DNA of 50,130 bases from Arcobacteraceae bacterium. Its GTDB lineage: Bacteria; Campylobacterota; Campylobacteria; Campylobacterales; Arcobacteraceae. Of this stretch, positions 41,946-49,041 are shown in pieces. A program made the translations under genes and the position numbers. The DNA lies in NCBI GenBank assembly GCA_028687375.1, contig JAQUAG010000016.1, forward strand, positions 1-50,130, read 5' to 3'. The notes under the pieces are model-generated. The model saw nothing but the letters and a program-made list of their open reading frames with translations, did no database searches and had not been told where the DNA came from. The stretch's first letter is position 1, and each line of letters begins with the position of its first letter.

Positions 41946-41974
41946 TTGACAAATGAAAAGTTTTTTACTATAAT
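41946..41974 (+). promoter_or_regulatory. Consensus sigma-70 promoter of the tRNA pair
   Basis: TTGACA at 41946-41951 and TATAAT at 41969-41974 match the bacterial consensus fully, with a 17-base spacer. The predicted start lies about 10 bases before tRNA-Gln. It is the strongest promoter in the window by sequence. Confidence 0.85.
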
Positions 41975-41991
41975 TCCACCACTTAAATGAT

Positions 41992-42066
41992 TGGGGTATA
42001 GCCAAGCGGTAAGGCAACGGTTTTTGGTACCGTCATTCGAAGGTTCGAATCCTTCTACCCCATCCA
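41992..42066 (+). tRNA. tRNA-Gln (anticodon TTG)
   Basis: A full cloverleaf: acceptor TGGGGTA (41992-41998) pairs with TACCCCA (42056-42062), the anticodon loop is TTTTGGT with anticodon TTG, and the T loop is GGTTCGAATCC. Discriminator T is followed by an encoded CCA (42064-42066). It is the first of two tRNAs 7 bases apart. Confidence 0.95.
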
Positions 42067-42073
42067 CTCTTAA

Positions 42074-42150
<77 letters not shown>

Positions 42151-42358: not shown

Positions 42359-43300
42359 ATGGAAGATGAAGTTAAAACCTTAAATTATATAAAATCATTT
42401 TTAAGTGACGACTATGTTTCTTTAAAAGAAAATCTAGAACTCCTACTCAAAGAATATGAACGAAAATCAAAGCGGCTCGATACTATTATCAAACGAAGTG
42501 ATAAACAACAACTGCAACTTATCCATCTTAATGAAGAACTTGACTCTTATAAAAATGAGCTTGAGATAAAAGTAGAAGAGGAGATAGCAAACAGAAAAGA
42601 GAAAGAGAAAATGCTATTCCAACAATCTAAGCTTGCTGCTATGGGTGAGATGATGGATGCCGTCGCTCATCAATGGAAACAACCAATCAACATCGTAAAT
42701 ATGCAAGTTGATATGTTAGGTTATGATTTTGAAGATAATCTTATCAATCAAGAATATATTACAGATTTTCAAGAAAAAATATTTTCACAAATTCAACATA
42801 TGACAAGTACTCTTGAAGAGTTTAGAAACTTTTTCAGACCAAGTAAAGAGGTAAAAGAGTTTGATGTGAAAAAGATGATTGATAAAGTTTTACTCCTTGT
42901 AAAAGATGAATTTATGAAAAATCAGATAAAAATAAAAGTAAATGAGATAGAAAATTTCTCTCTATTTGGGATAGAAAATGAATTTAAACATCTCATCTTA
43001 AATATTATCAATAATGCAAAAGATGCTTTTAACGATAACAAAATTGAAAAAAGAGAGATAATCATCAATATTATTGCAAATTCAAAAAGTAAAAAAATAG
43101 AGATATGTGATAATGCAGGTGGGATTCCAAGTCATGTTATTGATGATATTTTTAAAGCAAATGTAACAACAAAAGCTGAAGGGAAAGGGACTGGAATAGG
43201 ACTTTATATGAGTAGTCAAATTGCAACCAAACATCATGGAACACTCATTGTTGAGAATATTGAAAATGGTGCAAAATTTACTTTTGAGCAACTACTGTAA
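42359..43300 (+). CDS. Soluble histidine kinase (AHQWKQP type), first gene of the Sia-like operon
   Basis: A 313-residue kinase with no membrane segment. Residues 28-85 form a probable coiled coil carrying the motif KRSDKQQ (45-51), which recurs in the HD-GYP protein at the end of the operon. HisKA has GEMMDAVAHQWKQP with His104; the HATPase has IINNAKDAF, DNAGGIP and GTGIGLYMS. The F-box region (FKANVTTKAEG) departs from the FDPYFTTK of its relatives. AGGGA precedes the ATG, and the next gene starts directly after the stop. A lone receiver two genes on is the likely phosphate acceptor. Confidence 0.92.
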   Translation: MEDEVKTLNYIKSFLSDDYVSLKENLELLLKEYERKSKRLDTIIKRSDKQQLQLIHLNEELDSYKNELEIKVEEEIANRKEKEKMLFQQSKLAAMGEMMDAVAHQWKQPINIVNMQVDMLGYDFEDNLINQEYITDFQEKIFSQIQHMTSTLEEFRNFFRPSKEVKEFDVKKMIDKVLLLVKDEFMKNQIKIKVNEIENFSLFGIENEFKHLILNIINNAKDAFNDNKIEKREIIINIIANSKSKKIEICDNAGGIPSHVIDDIFKANVTTKAEGKGTGIGLYMSSQIATKHHGTLIVENIENGAKFTFEQLL

Positions 43301-46300
43301 ATGCTAAAAATATTTTTTCTTATTCTAACTTTTGTCTCATTTGCACTAGCAAATCCTAAAGTGCATTATAAAGTATCATACGACCCTGATTATGCACCCT
43401 ATTCTTATAATATCGACAATAAACCAAATGGACTTTTGATTGATCTCTATAAAGAGTGGGGAAAAGCAAATAATATTGAAGTTGAATTTGTAAATGGTAA
43501 AACATGGGACAATGCAATAGCTTTAGCAAAAACTGGGAAAGTTGATTTTTTTTTAGGTACTGAACCTTATGAAAAATGGATGCAAGCTTCTTCCCCTTAT
43601 TACAAAACAAAAACAACACTTTTTTCTTTAAAATCATTTAATGGTTCTATAAATAAAGTTGGAATTATCGGAGAAGATTTTAAAAATGACTTAGTAGCTA
43701 AGTTTAAAAATATTACAATCACCTCTTATGGAACTTATCAAGAGTTAGTCAATGCCATTGTAGAACACAAAGTTGATGCTATTTATGATGATGAGATAGC
43801 TTTAAGTCAATATATCCTAAAACAAAGTAAAAATCATTTAATAAGAAAAATGGATATTCTCACTCAAGTCAAAAGTATGTGTGCTATTTCAAATGATATA
43901 AAAAAAATAGAACTATTTAATAAAGGGTTTTTAAAATTAGAGCAAAAAACTTTAGTAACTCTAGAAAACAATTGGCTTACGGATGAATCTCAGAAATACT
44001 ATACCACTTATGAAAAAGAGATATTTACTAAAAAAGAGAAAGAGTGGATGGATAAAAATCCTATCATTCGTATCGCACTTATGGATTATTGGCCACATGA
44101 TAAAGAAAACAACTCTCTACACACAGAGATTCTTAAACTAATTAATGAAAAAAGTGGTCTTTCTCTAACTCCTATATTTTTTAGTGCTTGGAAAGATGGC
44201 TATGACAAAGCTATAAAAGGGAAAAATCTTTATGGAATCATGGGATTAAGTTGGAGTGAAGAGAGGGAAAAAGAACATTTCTTCTATTCACCTGCTTACA
44301 ACTTTTCACCATGCTATTTAGTCACAAAACAATCAAATACAACCATCAAATCATTAAAAGATTTAGAAGGTAAAACTGTTTATCTTGAAAAAGACAACAT
44401 TACCCATAAAATGTTAGCAGATAAAAATATTAAAATCATAGATATGGCAACTGCTGATGATATGTATGAAGCACTTGAAAAATCAGATAAAGCAGATGGT
44501 TTTCTCTCCTATTTTATCGATGAAGAGAAACTAAATCAACATAATTTAAAGGTTACAGAAACTATCTATGAAAGATATGGAGAAGTTGCAATTGGGATAA
44601 ATCATCAGTATCCTGAGCTAAATTCAATTATCAATAAAGCTTTTAAACTTATTCCAAAAGAAACTCTTGCGCAACTTAGAAATACAAAATGGGATACTAA
44701 AAATGTTGTAATTATTCCACAAGAACAATCTATTCCAAAAGTTTCATTTATAGGACTTTTATCAACTGAAGAAATTTTATTTTTTACACTTATTTTTCTG
44801 TTATTGATATATTTAGTTTATATGATTTTCACAAAAAGTAAAATTCTCAATATAAAATTTAAACTTTTTAATCTTACACTTATTGGTATAGAGTTGGTTG
44901 TTATCATTTTTATTATTTCTGAAGTTACTATTTTAGATAGAACTGAAAATACCCTTGCAAAAGCATATAAAGATCATCATGAGCTTATTAAAATAATAGA
45001 CCATCTTAGACAAAGTTCTGATGATTTAACACATTTTTCAAGAACTTATGCCGTAACTGGTGATAAAGAGTTTGAAAAAAGATACTTTACAACACTTGAT
45101 ATAAGAAATGGGAAAATAGCTAGACCAAAAGATTATGATAATATTTATTGGGATTTAGATGAAAATATCAGAAAAGTACAACATCCAGATGGAAAAAAAG
45201 AAGCTTTAAAAAGTATGATAGAAAAACTCCCTTTTAGTGAGTTTGAAAAAGCGAAATTAAAAGAATCAGAAGATAATTCAAATGAACTTGTAAAACTTGA
45301 AGTAGAAGCTTTTGAAGCAATTAAAAATAATAATAAAGAGTTAGCTATACAGCTCTTACATAGCAATAACTACTATAAAGCAAAAAATAAAATTATGCTT
45401 CCAATTGATGAAGTGTTAACAGCTCTTGACAAAAGAACTAATCAAGAGATAACTATTTTAGAATTAAAAATTAAAAATCAATTTATATATATTTTACTCA
45501 TTAGTATCTTATTTATTATCGCTAATTTGTTAGCATATCTATTATTAAGAAGTAAAGTAACCATACCTATTGAGTATCTAACAAATGCTATTCAAAGATT
45601 CAAAAACAATGAAAAGATAGTTGAAAAAGAGACTTTTTATAATGATGAAATTGGATATATGATAAAAGAATTTTTTGAGATGAAAGAATCTATTGAACAT
45701 CAAAAAAATGACTTAGAACTTTCAAAAAAATCGACAGAACAAATTTTAGCAAATATATTATTCCCATTATTAATTACATCACGGGAAAAAAGAGTAATTG
45801 TTTATGCTAATCAATTTGCATGTGAACTATATGAAAAATCTTATGAAGATATTATTGACTTATCACTCGATAATTTATATACATTATCCAATGGTCCAGC
45901 AGAATTGATAAAAAAACTCACAAATGAGGGAAAAGTTGATAGTATTGAAGAGGAAGTCACTACTCATTCTGGTAAAAGATTCACTGCTTTACTCTCTGTT
46001 ATCCCTTTCACTTATCATGAGGAAGAGTGTTATATAGGGATGACTATTGATATTACAAAACAAAAAGAGATGGAAAATGCATTTCGTTTGATGCACAAAC
46101 AAACAAGAGATAGTATCGAATATGCATCACTTATTCAAACTGCACTTATCCCTGATAATAATCTATTTAGAAAATATTTTGATGAATATTTTGTAATATG
46201 GCATCCAAAAGATATAGTTGGGGGAGATATTTATCTTTTTGAAGAGTTAAGAAATGATGATGAGTGTTTACTTATGGTAATTGACTGTACAGGGCATGGA

Positions 46301-46885
46301 GTCCCTGGTGCCTTTGTAACTATGCTAGTTAAAGCAATCGAGCGACAAATCATCTCTAAAATAAATCACAATGAAGATGAAATAGTAAGTCCAGCAGAAA
46401 TCTTAAGTATCTTTAACAGAAGTATGAAACATCTTTTAAAACAAGAGGATAAAAATAGCATCTCAAATGCAGGGTTTGATGGGCAAATTATCTACTATAA
46501 TAAAAAAGATAAAGTTATAAAATGTGCAAGTGCTAGAAACTCTATTTTTTATCTTCAAGATGATGAAATTATAGAGATAAAAGGGGATAGACACTCTGTT
46601 GGATACAACGATAGCGATGGAGATTTTCCATTTACAGAGCATATTTTGAGCACTTCAAAAGATATCTCTTTATATATCTCAAGTGATGGTTATTGGGATC
46701 AAATGGGTGGAGAAAATGAGAGATCATTTGGTAAAAAAAGATTTAAAAATTTAATTGAAACTATCAAAGATGAATCTATGGCAGAGCAACAAGAGGAGTT
46801 TATCTATACACTACACGATTACCAAGGGGATGTAGATAGACAAGATGATGTTACAGTTATTGCATTTAAAATAAAAGGGGAATAA
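43301..46885 (+). CDS. SiaA-like sensor phosphatase: two solute-binding domains, PAS, SpoIIE/PP2C
   Basis: A 1194-residue membrane protein. Signal peptide about 1-17; two SBP_bac_3-type domains (about 19-232 and 250-468); TM helices near 492-513 and 525-545; an extracytoplasmic helical domain (about 550-725, CHASE3/four-helix-like); a third TM near 729-749; a HAMP-like linker; PAS about 819-930; SpoIIE phosphatase about 945-1192. PP2C metal ligands are present: Asp976 (VGGDIY), Asp995 (DCTGHGVPG), Asp1129 (SSDGYWD) and Asp1182-1183 (RQDDVTV). It should dephosphorylate the SiaC-like protein encoded downstream when the periplasmic domains sense a ligand, perhaps an amino acid. It begins right after the kinase stop. 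Confidence 0.9.
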   Translation: MLKIFFLILTFVSFALANPKVHYKVSYDPDYAPYSYNIDNKPNGLLIDLYKEWGKANNIEVEFVNGKTWDNAIALAKTGKVDFFLGTEPYEKWMQASSPYYKTKTTLFSLKSFNGSINKVGIIGEDFKNDLVAKFKNITITSYGTYQELVNAIVEHKVDAIYDDEIALSQYILKQSKNHLIRKMDILTQVKSMCAISNDIKKIELFNKGFLKLEQKTLVTLENNWLTDESQKYYTTYEKEIFTKKEKEWMDKNPIIRIALMDYWPHDKENNSLHTEILKLINEKSGLSLTPIFFSAWKDGYDKAIKGKNLYGIMGLSWSEEREKEHFFYSPAYNFSPCYLVTKQSNTTIKSLKDLEGKTVYLEKDNITHKMLADKNIKIIDMATADDMYEALEKSDKADGFLSYFIDEEKLNQHNLKVTETIYERYGEVAIGINHQYPELNSIINKAFKLIPKETLAQLRNTKWDTKNVVIIPQEQSIPKVSFIGLLSTEEILFFTLIFLLLIYLVYMIFTKSKILNIKFKLFNLTLIGIELVVIIFIISEVTILDRTENTLAKAYKDHHELIKIIDHLRQSSDDLTHFSRTYAVTGDKEFEKRYFTTLDIRNGKIARPKDYDNIYWDLDENIRKVQHPDGKKEALKSMIEKLPFSEFEKAKLKESEDNSNELVKLEVEAFEAIKNNNKELAIQLLHSNNYYKAKNKIMLPIDEVLTALDKRTNQEITILELKIKNQFIYILLISILFIIANLLAYLLLRSKVTIPIEYLTNAIQRFKNNEKIVEKETFYNDEIGYMIKEFFEMKESIEHQKNDLELSKKSTEQILANILFPLLITSREKRVIVYANQFACELYEKSYEDIIDLSLDNLYTLSNGPAELIKKLTNEGKVDSIEEEVTTHSGKRFTALLSVIPFTYHEEECYIGMTIDITKQKEMENAFRLMHKQTRDSIEYASLIQTALIPDNNLFRKYFDEYFVIWHPKDIVGGDIYLFEELRNDDECLLMVIDCTGHGVPGAFVTMLVKAIERQIISKINHNEDEIVSPAEILSIFNRSMKHLLKQEDKNSISNAGFDGQIIYYNKKDKVIKCASARNSIFYLQDDEIIEIKGDRHSVGYNDSDGDFPFTEHILSTSKDISLYISSDGYWDQMGGENERSFGKKRFKNLIETIKDESMAEQQEEFIYTLHDYQGDVDRQDDVTVIAFKIKGE

Positions 46886-46888
46886 TAT

Positions 46889-47266
46889 ATGTTTAAAATA
46901 TTGGTTGTCGATGATTCTAAATCTGCTAGAAATAGAGTTGTCAAAACACTTGAAGACTCTGAAGTTGCTTGTGAAATTGTTGGTACTGCTGAAGATGGAA
47001 AAGATGGTATAGCTAAATATATTGAACTTAGACCAAATTTAATTATCACAGATATAGAGATGCCAAATATGGATGGAAGAGAATTTATAACAAAACTCAA
47101 ACAACTTAATAATAATTTACCAATCATCGCTATTACATCTATTGTAAATGAAAAGATTAAACAATCACTTATGGCAAATAATTTAGTTTATGTATTACAT
47201 AAACCACTTGACGCTAAACTGTTGCATATCTTACTTAGTAAAATTGCTAAAGAAAATACACTATGA
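46889..47266 (+). CDS. Single-domain response regulator (receiver only)
   Basis: A 125-residue CheY-like protein. Asp8-Asp9, phospho-acceptor Asp55 (IITDIEMPNMDG), Thr83 (AITS) and Lys105 (HKP) are all present. It has no output domain. It lies three bases after the phosphatase gene and its stop overlaps an ATG at 47263. It probably links the operon's histidine kinase to the SiaB/SiaC switch or to the HD-GYP enzyme by direct contact. Confidence 0.93.
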   Translation: MFKILVVDDSKSARNRVVKTLEDSEVACEIVGTAEDGKDGIAKYIELRPNLIITDIEMPNMDGREFITKLKQLNNNLPIIAITSIVNEKIKQSLMANNLVYVLHKPLDAKLLHILLSKIAKENTL

Positions 47267-47280
47267 AAGGAAGTACAAAA

Positions 47281-47820
47281 ATGAATATTTCAAAAATACG
47301 ACAATTAATGGATGATGAGGGAATAGTATTTTCCTTTTCTGGTCTGATTTCCCAATCACTTACAGAATTTATGGTAGAAACAGCTTCAAAACAATTTGCA
47401 GACGATGGATACGATAAAACTATGATAAAAAGTATGTTTTTAATAGCAATCGAACAACTTCAAAATGTTATGAGTTATTCAAAACAAAAACATATCCAAA
47501 CGGGAAATAGATATACAAGCCCAGGTGTATTATTAGTAGGATTTGATGATGAGAAACAAAAATACTATGTGAGTAGTTCAAATGAAATCATTGAAGAGGA
47601 TAAAATCAAAATATCAACTAAAATAGATTTTATCAACTCTCTTGATACTGGGGAACAAAGAAAATATTTAAGAGAAAAACTAAAATCAGCAGAAGATACT
47701 CACGATAGAGGTGCTGGGGTTGGATTTATTGAGATAGCAAAAAGATCAAGTGAAAAACTTGAATACGACTTTGAAGAGTTGGATGGGAAATCATATTTTC
47801 ACATCAAAGCATATATATAA
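47281..47820 (+). CDS. SiaB-family protein kinase (DUF6272)
   Basis: A predicted small GHKL-fold kinase of the SiaB type, which phosphorylates SiaC. The start at 47281 is chosen because AAGGA lies nine bases upstream; an ATG at 47263, overlapping the receiver stop, would add six residues. Conserved features are EGIVFSFSGLISQSL near the N-terminus, EQLQNVMSYSKQ (N-box-like Glu and Asn) and RGAGVGFIEIAKRS (a G-box). The protein ends in HIKAYI. In Pseudomonas the homologue opposes the SiaA phosphatase. It lies between the receiver and SiaC-like genes. Confidence 0.85.
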   Translation: MNISKIRQLMDDEGIVFSFSGLISQSLTEFMVETASKQFADDGYDKTMIKSMFLIAIEQLQNVMSYSKQKHIQTGNRYTSPGVLLVGFDDEKQKYYVSSSNEIIEEDKIKISTKIDFINSLDTGEQRKYLREKLKSAEDTHDRGAGVGFIEIAKRSSEKLEYDFEELDGKSYFHIKAYI

Positions 47821-47838
47821 AAAATAAAAGGATAAAAA

Positions 47839-48219
47839 ATGGAAAACTTACACTTAGAAAAGACAAACTATACACCACAAATTAACTTCGATGCCTCAAA
47901 AGGTCTTTTAGAATTTTTAGGTAAATCATACCCTGAAAATACATTTGATTTTTATAAGCCAGTAAAAGAGTGGCTCAATGAATATGCAAAAACAACAACA
48001 AATGAAAAAACAATCGTAAACTTTGAACTAACATACTTAAACTCTAGTAGTTTAAAAGTTTATTTTGATATCTTTGATACTTTAGAAGAGATGCATAATA
48101 ACGCTAAAGGTGTTGAAATTAATTGGATATATGAAGAAGATGATGATATTATCGAAGAGACTGGGGAAGATTTTGCAGATGATTTTACATCATTAAAAAT
48201 AAATCTAATTTCTAAATAA
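47839..48219 (+). CDS. SiaC-family phosphoswitch protein (DUF1987)
   Basis: A 126-residue protein with the STAS-like DUF1987 fold. The core has the family order: TPQINFDASKGLLEFLGKSYPENTFDFY, then the strand and helix FELTYLNSSSLKVYFDIFDTL. The Ser cluster 69-71 sits where Pseudomonas SiaC carries its regulatory phospho-Thr (T68), so one of these serines is the probable target. The tail is acidic. Unphosphorylated SiaC binds and activates the c-di-GMP enzyme in Pseudomonas. AAAGGA lies nine bases before the ATG and the SiaB-like gene is immediately upstream. Confidence 0.88.
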   Translation: MENLHLEKTNYTPQINFDASKGLLEFLGKSYPENTFDFYKPVKEWLNEYAKTTTNEKTIVNFELTYLNSSSLKVYFDIFDTLEEMHNNAKGVEINWIYEEDDDIIEETGEDFADDFTSLKINLISK

Positions 48220-48234
48220 CATTGGATAAAAAGC

Positions 48235-49041
48235 ATGCATAAAAAAGAAAACAACGAACTAGAGATTATTGGACAAATTGATTCTTTAGAATCTACTTTT
48301 ATTGAAACTATTAAAAATCTAAAACAAGAAATAAAACGGCATGATAAGATTATGGCAAGATCGGATAAGCAACAAAAAAGAGATTATGATGAGCTACAAA
48401 AAAAACTTGAAGAGGTTGAAGCTTTAAAAAAAGAGATAGAAGATACTCAAAAAGAGGTTGTTTTCAAAATGGGTGCAATTGGAGAAAGTAGAAGTAAAGA
48501 GACAGGAAACCATGTAAAAAGAGTCGCTTTATATACTAAACTTCTTGCTATGCATGCTGGAATTGATGAGGAAGAAGCTGAAATATTAAAACAAGCTAGC
48601 CCAATGCACGATATAGGTAAGATTGCTATTCCCGACTCCATTTTAAATAAACCAGGTCGATTTGAAGAAAACGAACGAAAAATAATGGAACAACATGCAC
48701 AACTTGGATATGAAATGCTTATAGGTTCTAGTCGTTCTTTATTGAATGCTGCAGCGATTGTTGCTTATCAACATCATGAAAATTATGATGGTACAGGATA
48801 CCCTAGACAATTAAAAGGGGAAGAAATACATATCTATGGAAGAATCACTGCTATGGTAGATGTCTTTGATGCACTTGGAAGTGATAGATGCTATAAAGAA
48901 GCTTGGGATGATGAAAAGATTTTTAACCTTTTCAAAGAGGAGAGAGGGAAAAAATTTGACCCAAAACTTGTAGATATATTTTTTGAAAATCTTGATGATT
49001 TTCTAGCGATTAGAAACAGTTTAAAGGATGAATTTGAATAA
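48235..49041 (+). CDS. HD-GYP c-di-GMP phosphodiesterase with SiaC-docking-like coiled coil
   Basis: A 268-residue cytosolic enzyme expected to hydrolyse c-di-GMP. Residues 20-75 form a coiled coil with ARSDKQQ (41-47), like the kinase at the start of the operon. The HD-GYP domain (about 78-262) keeps the metal and catalytic residues: His93, His125-Asp126 (HDIGK), His154, His180-His181 and the GYP triad at 188-190 (HHENYDGTGYP). In Sia operons described in Pseudomonas this place is held by a diguanylate cyclase, the opposite activity. It starts 15 bases after the SiaC-like gene. Confidence 0.92.
   Translation: MHKKENNELEIIGQIDSLESTFIETIKNLKQEIKRHDKIMARSDKQQKRDYDELQKKLEEVEALKKEIEDTQKEVVFKMGAIGESRSKETGNHVKRVALYTKLLAMHAGIDEEEAEILKQASPMHDIGKIAIPDSILNKPGRFEENERKIMEQHAQLGYEMLIGSSRSLLNAAAIVAYQHHENYDGTGYPRQLKGEEIHIYGRITAMVDVFDALGSDRCYKEAWDDEKIFNLFKEERGKKFDPKLVDIFFENLDDFLAIRNSLKDEFE

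Follow-up and report, generated by a model that had tools for sequence, protein, structure and literature searches.

Genes of the locus

At positions 42,359–49,041 of the window, by which we mean the whole 50,130-nucleotide stretch analysed here (positions 1–50,130 of contig JAQUAG010000016.1, Arcobacteraceae bacterium assembly GCA_028687375.1), six + strand open reading frames (ORFs) encode a histidine kinase (HK), a SiaA-like phosphatase of SBP-SBP-PAS-SpoIIE architecture, a receiver, the protein kinase SiaB, the adaptor SiaC and an HD-GYP protein (Table 1). The genes are separated by 0 to 18 bp or overlap by 4 bp, and the ORF list and domain profiles bear out the tight, one-strand arrangement of six genes described in the initial annotation. 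We consider it likely, from sequence, that they form a SiaABC-type phospho-switch with two clients, the HD-GYP protein and the HK, which share an N-terminal stalk carrying the SiaC-binding motif of the diguanylate cyclase SiaD.

All parts of a Sia-type switch are present, namely SiaC/DUF1987, a SiaB-family kinase, a SiaA-type SpoIIE/PP2C phosphatase and a Y-x-N-[TS]-S phosphosite motif, and chance does not explain the gene set, since many other loci likewise combine SiaA, SiaB and SiaC with a stalk-bearing enzyme. The family assignments fall short of the strictest models. The NCBIfam SiaA profile (NF038263) matches only the phosphatase half of the SiaA-like protein (residues 924–1191, E 4e-69; 233.8 versus an equivalog cut-off of 700 bits), the remainder of which includes SBP_bac_3 modules (2.9e-19), while SiaB and SiaC lie below their stricter equivalog cut-offs (69.9 versus 225 and 111.6 versus 150, respectively). 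The HisKA match in the HK is slightly below the Pfam cut-off (22.2 versus 26.9 bits), and domain profile searches found no sensor domain in this protein. SiaC is encoded by a single-copy gene in the genome. The operon is not SiaABCD in the strict sense, which has a GGDEF diguanylate cyclase (SiaD) as client: the predicted client adjoining SiaC is the HD-GYP protein, no GGDEF gene was found in the operon, and neither of the two stalk proteins of the genome is a GGDEF protein.

Table 1. Features of the Sia-type operon, in window coordinates.
Feature	Position	Strand	Evidence or remark
HK, 313 aa, cytosolic, DHp/CA only, predicted SiaC client	42359–43300	+	HATPase_c 1.2e-13
Predicted SiaC-docking stalk of HK	42422–42565	+	stalk profile E 1.7e-17
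HK stalk motif R39–Q51, RLDTIIKRSDKQQ	42473–42511	+	S47, Q51 = SiaD S82, Q86
SiaA-like phosphatase, 1194 aa, two SBP_bac_3 modules	43301–46885	+	starts directly after HK stop
PAS of SiaA-like phosphatase	about 45770–46060	+	PAS_9 2.8e-9
SpoIIE/PP2C domain of SiaA-like phosphatase	about 46256–46873	+	SpoIIE 3.4e-17, 63.5 versus 25 bits
Single-domain receiver (REC), CheY-like	46889–47266	+	Response_reg 5.9e-23
SiaB-family protein kinase	47263–47820	+	NF038262, 129.9 versus cut-off 85 bits; 4-bp overlap with REC
SiaC (DUF1987) adaptor	47839–48219	+	Pfam PF09345 4e-42, 143.1 versus 24.5 bits
HD-GYP cyclic di-GMP (c-di-GMP) phosphodiesterase, 268 aa, predicted SiaC client	48235–49041	+	HD_5 1.2e-30
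Predicted SiaC-docking stalk of HD-GYP protein	48286–48435	+	stalk profile E 4.4e-16
HD-GYP stalk motif R35–Q47, RHDKIMARSDKQQ	48337–48375	+	S43, Q47 = SiaD S82, Q86
HD-GYP domain	about 48487–48969	+	within HD-GYP protein

The window SiaC, whose nearest solved relative is Pseudomonas aeruginosa SiaC (PDB 6kko, identical in sequence to the SiaC of 7e6g), has the phosphosite region Y66-L-N68-S69-S70, and Ser69 (codon 48043–48045) is the predicted phosphosite, equivalent to T68 of the P. aeruginosa protein. Across the 92 distinct SiaC genes that we assembled from 80 SiaC loci of public genomes and from Campylobacterota loci, the interface residues Y65, N67, S/T68 (the window Ser69), S69, D79, an acidic residue at 110 and D114 are conserved, the constancy of the NS core being partly an ascertainment effect as it belonged to the SiaC search pattern. 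The HD-GYP protein is closest in sequence and fold to the phosphodiesterase 4mcw (48% identity; top fold match of the model, TMq 0.69, structural alignment of about 199 columns). Its HD, HHE and GYP motifs are intact, and in 28 relatives H93, H125, D126, H154, H180, H181, D209 and G188-Y189-P190 are invariant and E89 nearly so. The metal ligands and the GYP motif of an HD-GYP phosphodiesterase are thus in place, the ligand roles being assigned by alignment to 4mcw.

A stalk common to the kinase and the phosphodiesterase

The first 75 residues of the two predicted clients contain a common segment (KRLDTIIKRSDKQQ in the HK, KRHDKIMARSDKQQ in the HD-GYP protein), and in alignment both follow the pattern R-x-x-[K/T]-I-x-x-x-S-D-x-x-Q. 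In the SiaC–SiaD crystal structure (7E6G), R74, K77, V78, S82, D83 and Q86 of the SiaD stalk helix are among the SiaC contacts, and T68 of SiaC bonds to S82 and Q86, such that phosphorylation of T68 blocks binding (PMC8457831). HK residues R39, I43, S47, D48 and Q51 and HD-GYP residues R35, K38, I39, S43, D44 and Q47 align onto these contact positions; because of this alignment, both proteins, each with a stalk bearing a SiaD-type SiaC-binding motif, are predicted SiaC clients. Across enzymes with unrelated catalytic domains the D and Q of the motif are invariant and the S is mostly kept, and among kinases I43, S47, D48 and Q51 equal the catalytic residues in invariance. Single-chain structure predictions place the stalk on one uninterrupted helix that runs into the catalytic domain of the HD-GYP protein (residues 2–85) or into the DHp region of the HK (residues 20–125), a plausible signal path in both.

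A profile built from 32 stalks of SiaC neighbours, with no SiaD sequence included, retrieved SiaD (7e6g) as its top match among 177,635 distinct PDB sequences (E 7.6e-4). SiaD aligns at its proximal SiaC-binding motif and, more weakly, over a second stretch at the distal motif. The profile matches only the HK and the HD-GYP protein in their own genome at E ≤ 1e-3, the next match being at 0.07. Among 298 Campylobacterota genomes, SiaC was above cut-off in 13, and a stalk protein was found in 10 of these versus 0 of 285 SiaC-negative genomes. In the order containing the Marinobacterium locus L040 (245 genomes), the corresponding counts at E ≤ 1e-3 were 14 of 18 and 0 of 227, leaving uncounted a weak partial match (E 0.008) in one SiaC-negative genome. 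Pooled, stalk proteins occur in 24 of 31 SiaC-positive and 0 of 512 SiaC-negative genomes. The four SiaC-positive genomes of the L040 order without a stalk match comprise one that holds a SiaD-like GGDEF protein with both motifs below threshold, one with a cyclase whose stalk is sub-threshold, and two without a client nearby.

A stalk protein lies in the gene run of 65 of the 92 SiaC genes. Counting overlaps, these are HD-GYP proteins (44), HATPase kinases (24), GGDEF proteins (6), class III cyclases (3) and a SpoIIE protein (1); six stalk-bearing classes therefore adjoin SiaC when histidine kinases and CheX-type ATPases are told apart, and Pfam confirmed representatives, including HATPase + CheX proteins and a PAS–cyclase–receiver fusion. 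The 44 loci with a stalk-bearing HD-GYP protein amount to conserved co-occurrence, the absence of which would, according to the initial annotation, have refuted its reading. On the SiaC tree the client class must change 18 times or more, but 44 of the 89 inner branches are unsupported; we rejected the tree as firm proof of client swapping and take it as a hint. Between stalk-GGDEF and stalk-HK genes at one locus lies a 77-aa ORF that is mostly SiaC-docking stalk (L020:11101–11334, the same as L103:11412–11645), which could be a SiaC decoy, a competitor or a remnant.

Outputs of the switch and their sign

In the mechanism that we favour, a ligand at the SBP domains of the membrane SiaA-like phosphatase would control dephosphorylation of SiaC at Ser69, the residue that SiaB would phosphorylate. 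Unphosphorylated SiaC would then dock onto the N-terminal stalk helix of both the HD-GYP protein and the sensorless HK and steady a coiled coil that is dimeric and parallel, in the way seen with SiaC and SiaD, so that both enzymes would be reset together, one through c-di-GMP hydrolysis and the other through a phosphorelay, possibly via the receiver of the operon.

The sign of this control might be the opposite, with stalk-bound SiaC keeping the HD-GYP protein, the HK or both inactive until SiaC phosphorylation frees them, which we view as possible though on balance unlikely. The two outcomes raised in the initial annotation, dispersal in place of aggregation and SiaC as an inhibitor, may each apply, depending on this sign. 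At three loci (L036:5202–6726, L037:7802–9558 and L038:10387–12144) one SiaC adjoins a stalk-like GGDEF protein and a stalk-bearing HD-GYP protein, and because joint activation of the two would give a futile cycle, the signs may differ between these clients. However, the GGDEF stalks at these loci have a motif without its final Q and their docking is perhaps weaker or lost, and SiaD, the sole measured case, is activated by SiaC (PMC8457831). As an observation in its own right, these loci suggest that c-di-GMP-making and c-di-GMP-destroying enzymes may share one adaptor.

It is more improbable that SiaC controls the HD-GYP protein only, with the HK and receiver forming a separate two-component input to the switch, for example through the phosphatase. 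The initial annotation, which had wired the Sia switch to the HD-GYP protein, a credible SiaC-controlled output in view of its stalk, also read the kinase and receiver as suggesting a second input, and that part was not supported. Inputs from receiver to phosphatase do exist in the family, as receiver–SpoIIE fusions at SiaC loci L103, L051, L069 and L108, and in the window the receiver gene sits between SiaA and SiaB. Against this, the HK lacks a sensor domain and has the same SiaC-docking stalk as the HD-GYP protein (Table 1), and hence is more likely an output. Close relatives of it, 45–52% identical, are the sole stalk gene beside SiaC elsewhere, and at six loci (L058, L082, L083, L086, L088, L092) a kinase 45–49% identical to it comes directly after SiaC as the sole stalk gene of the run. 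These HK-only loci, the invariant kinase stalk residues and the co-occurrence of HK and HD-GYP clients at eight loci argue that the HK is probably a second SiaC output and not an added input. One of the loci, L060 on a gammaproteobacterial contig, has SiaA, stalk-HK, receiver, SiaC, stalk-HD-GYP and SiaB, the six parts of the window reordered, and L049 has the same component set minus the receiver.

Of the 44 HD-GYP loci, 15 have a single receiver in their gene run, five of the eight with an HK client and 10 of the 36 without. Because the receiver recurs where no HK client neighbours it, the kinase and receiver need not form one added unit, and strict pairing of the two was rejected on the same count. 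Receivers related to that of the window adjoin SiaB or SiaC at L035, L036, L048, L050, L059 and L060, the nearest being 42–45% identical over the aligned part, and the window receiver may be phosphorylated by the HK.

That the common segment is a generic dimerizing coiled coil or signalling helix of cytosolic HKs and HD-GYP proteins, unrelated to SiaC, is very improbable, for although this stretch forms a helix with many charged residues and the profile has a designed helical protein as its second PDB match (E 0.01), the stalk is missing from the SiaC-negative genomes, which must be rich in coiled coils, matches just two proteins of its own genome, keeps its D, Q and mostly its S over unrelated catalytic domains, and retrieves SiaD precisely at the crystallographic SiaC site.

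Several points weigh against docking of SiaC on both clients. SiaD has two motifs per chain and each window client only one, and affinity may therefore be lower than that of SiaD; in a few clients A or G replaces the stalk serine; and the proposed docking is drawn from sequence and single-chain models. No stalk client was found in 27 of the 92 SiaC gene runs, possible causes being the ends of contigs, a client at greater distance or on the opposite strand, or a divergent SiaC. The Fisher values for the association of stalk and SiaC (p = 2e-16 in Campylobacterota and 1e-19 in the L040 order) overstate independence because the surveyed genomes are related, and since SiaC neighbours served as the training set of the profile, matches at the training loci are partly circular, a circularity from which the absence in 512 genomes and the retrieval of SiaD are free.

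Genomic setting, known systems and implications

Directly upstream of the operon lie tRNA-Gln and tRNA-Met (41992–42150), preceded by a consensus sigma-70 match at 41946–41974. We rejected this match as the operon promoter, as it belongs to the tRNA pair and not clearly to the operon; promoter-like matches overall were no more than chance would give, and the operon showed no terminator. A genus-mate genome that lacks SiaC (G044, L215) is syntenic with the window from the PEPCK gene to tRNA-Met, ending just before the operon, a breakpoint that fits either gain by transfer at the tRNA or loss in the relative.

Other SiaC loci offered further observations. A 2916-aa SiaA-like phosphatase (L038:323–9073) has roughly seven SBP matches and six PAS matches ahead of its SpoIIE domain. 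Closely related SiaC + stalk-HATPase loci occur in metagenome-assembled genomes labelled Bacteroidales (L106), Gammaproteobacteria (L105) and Desulfocapsa (L094), and their likeness over three phylum labels reflects either mis-binning of the contigs or recent transfer. Two in-frame TAG codons interrupt a SiaC fragment (L014/L034, G149:C1:354932–355075), which is possibly a decayed copy. A strongly divergent SiaC branch adjoins SiaA and SiaB at L032 and L033 (G176, G133), where no stalk client was found, and may have another kind of partner. No SiaC relatives were found in viral contigs.

Like P. aeruginosa SiaABCD (PDB 7E6G; eLife 2021 e67289), the window has a SpoIIE/PP2C phosphatase, a SiaB kinase, a SiaC adaptor with a conserved phosphosite region and a predicted client with an N-terminal stalk bearing the SiaC-binding motif; unlike it, the window has an HD-GYP instead of a GGDEF client, a predicted second client in the HK, an additional receiver, a phosphatase with SBP sensors and a single stalk motif per chain instead of two. 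The HD-GYP protein shares its intact motifs with 4mcw, which has a tri-nuclear metal centre, but differs from it in having a predicted SiaC-docking stalk in place of the 4mcw N-terminal domain. A survey of Campylobacterota gene clusters (mBio 2022) proposed that a PP2C phosphatase with a periplasmic sensor and an STYK kinase regulate a c-di-GMP enzyme via a STAS protein (PMC9239204); the section consulted mentions neither a docking motif nor a histidine kinase as client. The authors of the SiaD study suggested that DUF1987 proteins generally modulate adjacent proteins (PMC8457831). A docking motif beyond SiaD, or histidine kinases as SiaC clients, were not found in the literature, where searches for a wider motif led to the SiaD paper only, most subscription journals and all preprints lying outside the search. 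Both SiaABCD of Pseudomonas and the motif of SiaD are already published, whereas the wider docking motif and the HK clients are apparently new.

What is known of SiaC comes from a single system, in which it activates one diguanylate cyclase. We think there is a good chance that it is instead a general phospho-controlled docking adaptor, with a portable stalk that plugs at least six enzyme classes into one Ser/Thr phospho-switch, and that in operons of this kind a single SiaC pool simultaneously coordinates a two-component kinase with an enzyme of second-messenger metabolism. If the stalk rule is general, SiaC clients would be readable from sequence in many environmental bacteria, and, if true, it would provide a cross-talk point linking Ser/Thr phosphorylation to c-di-GMP and to two-component signalling, testable via two stalk residues per client.

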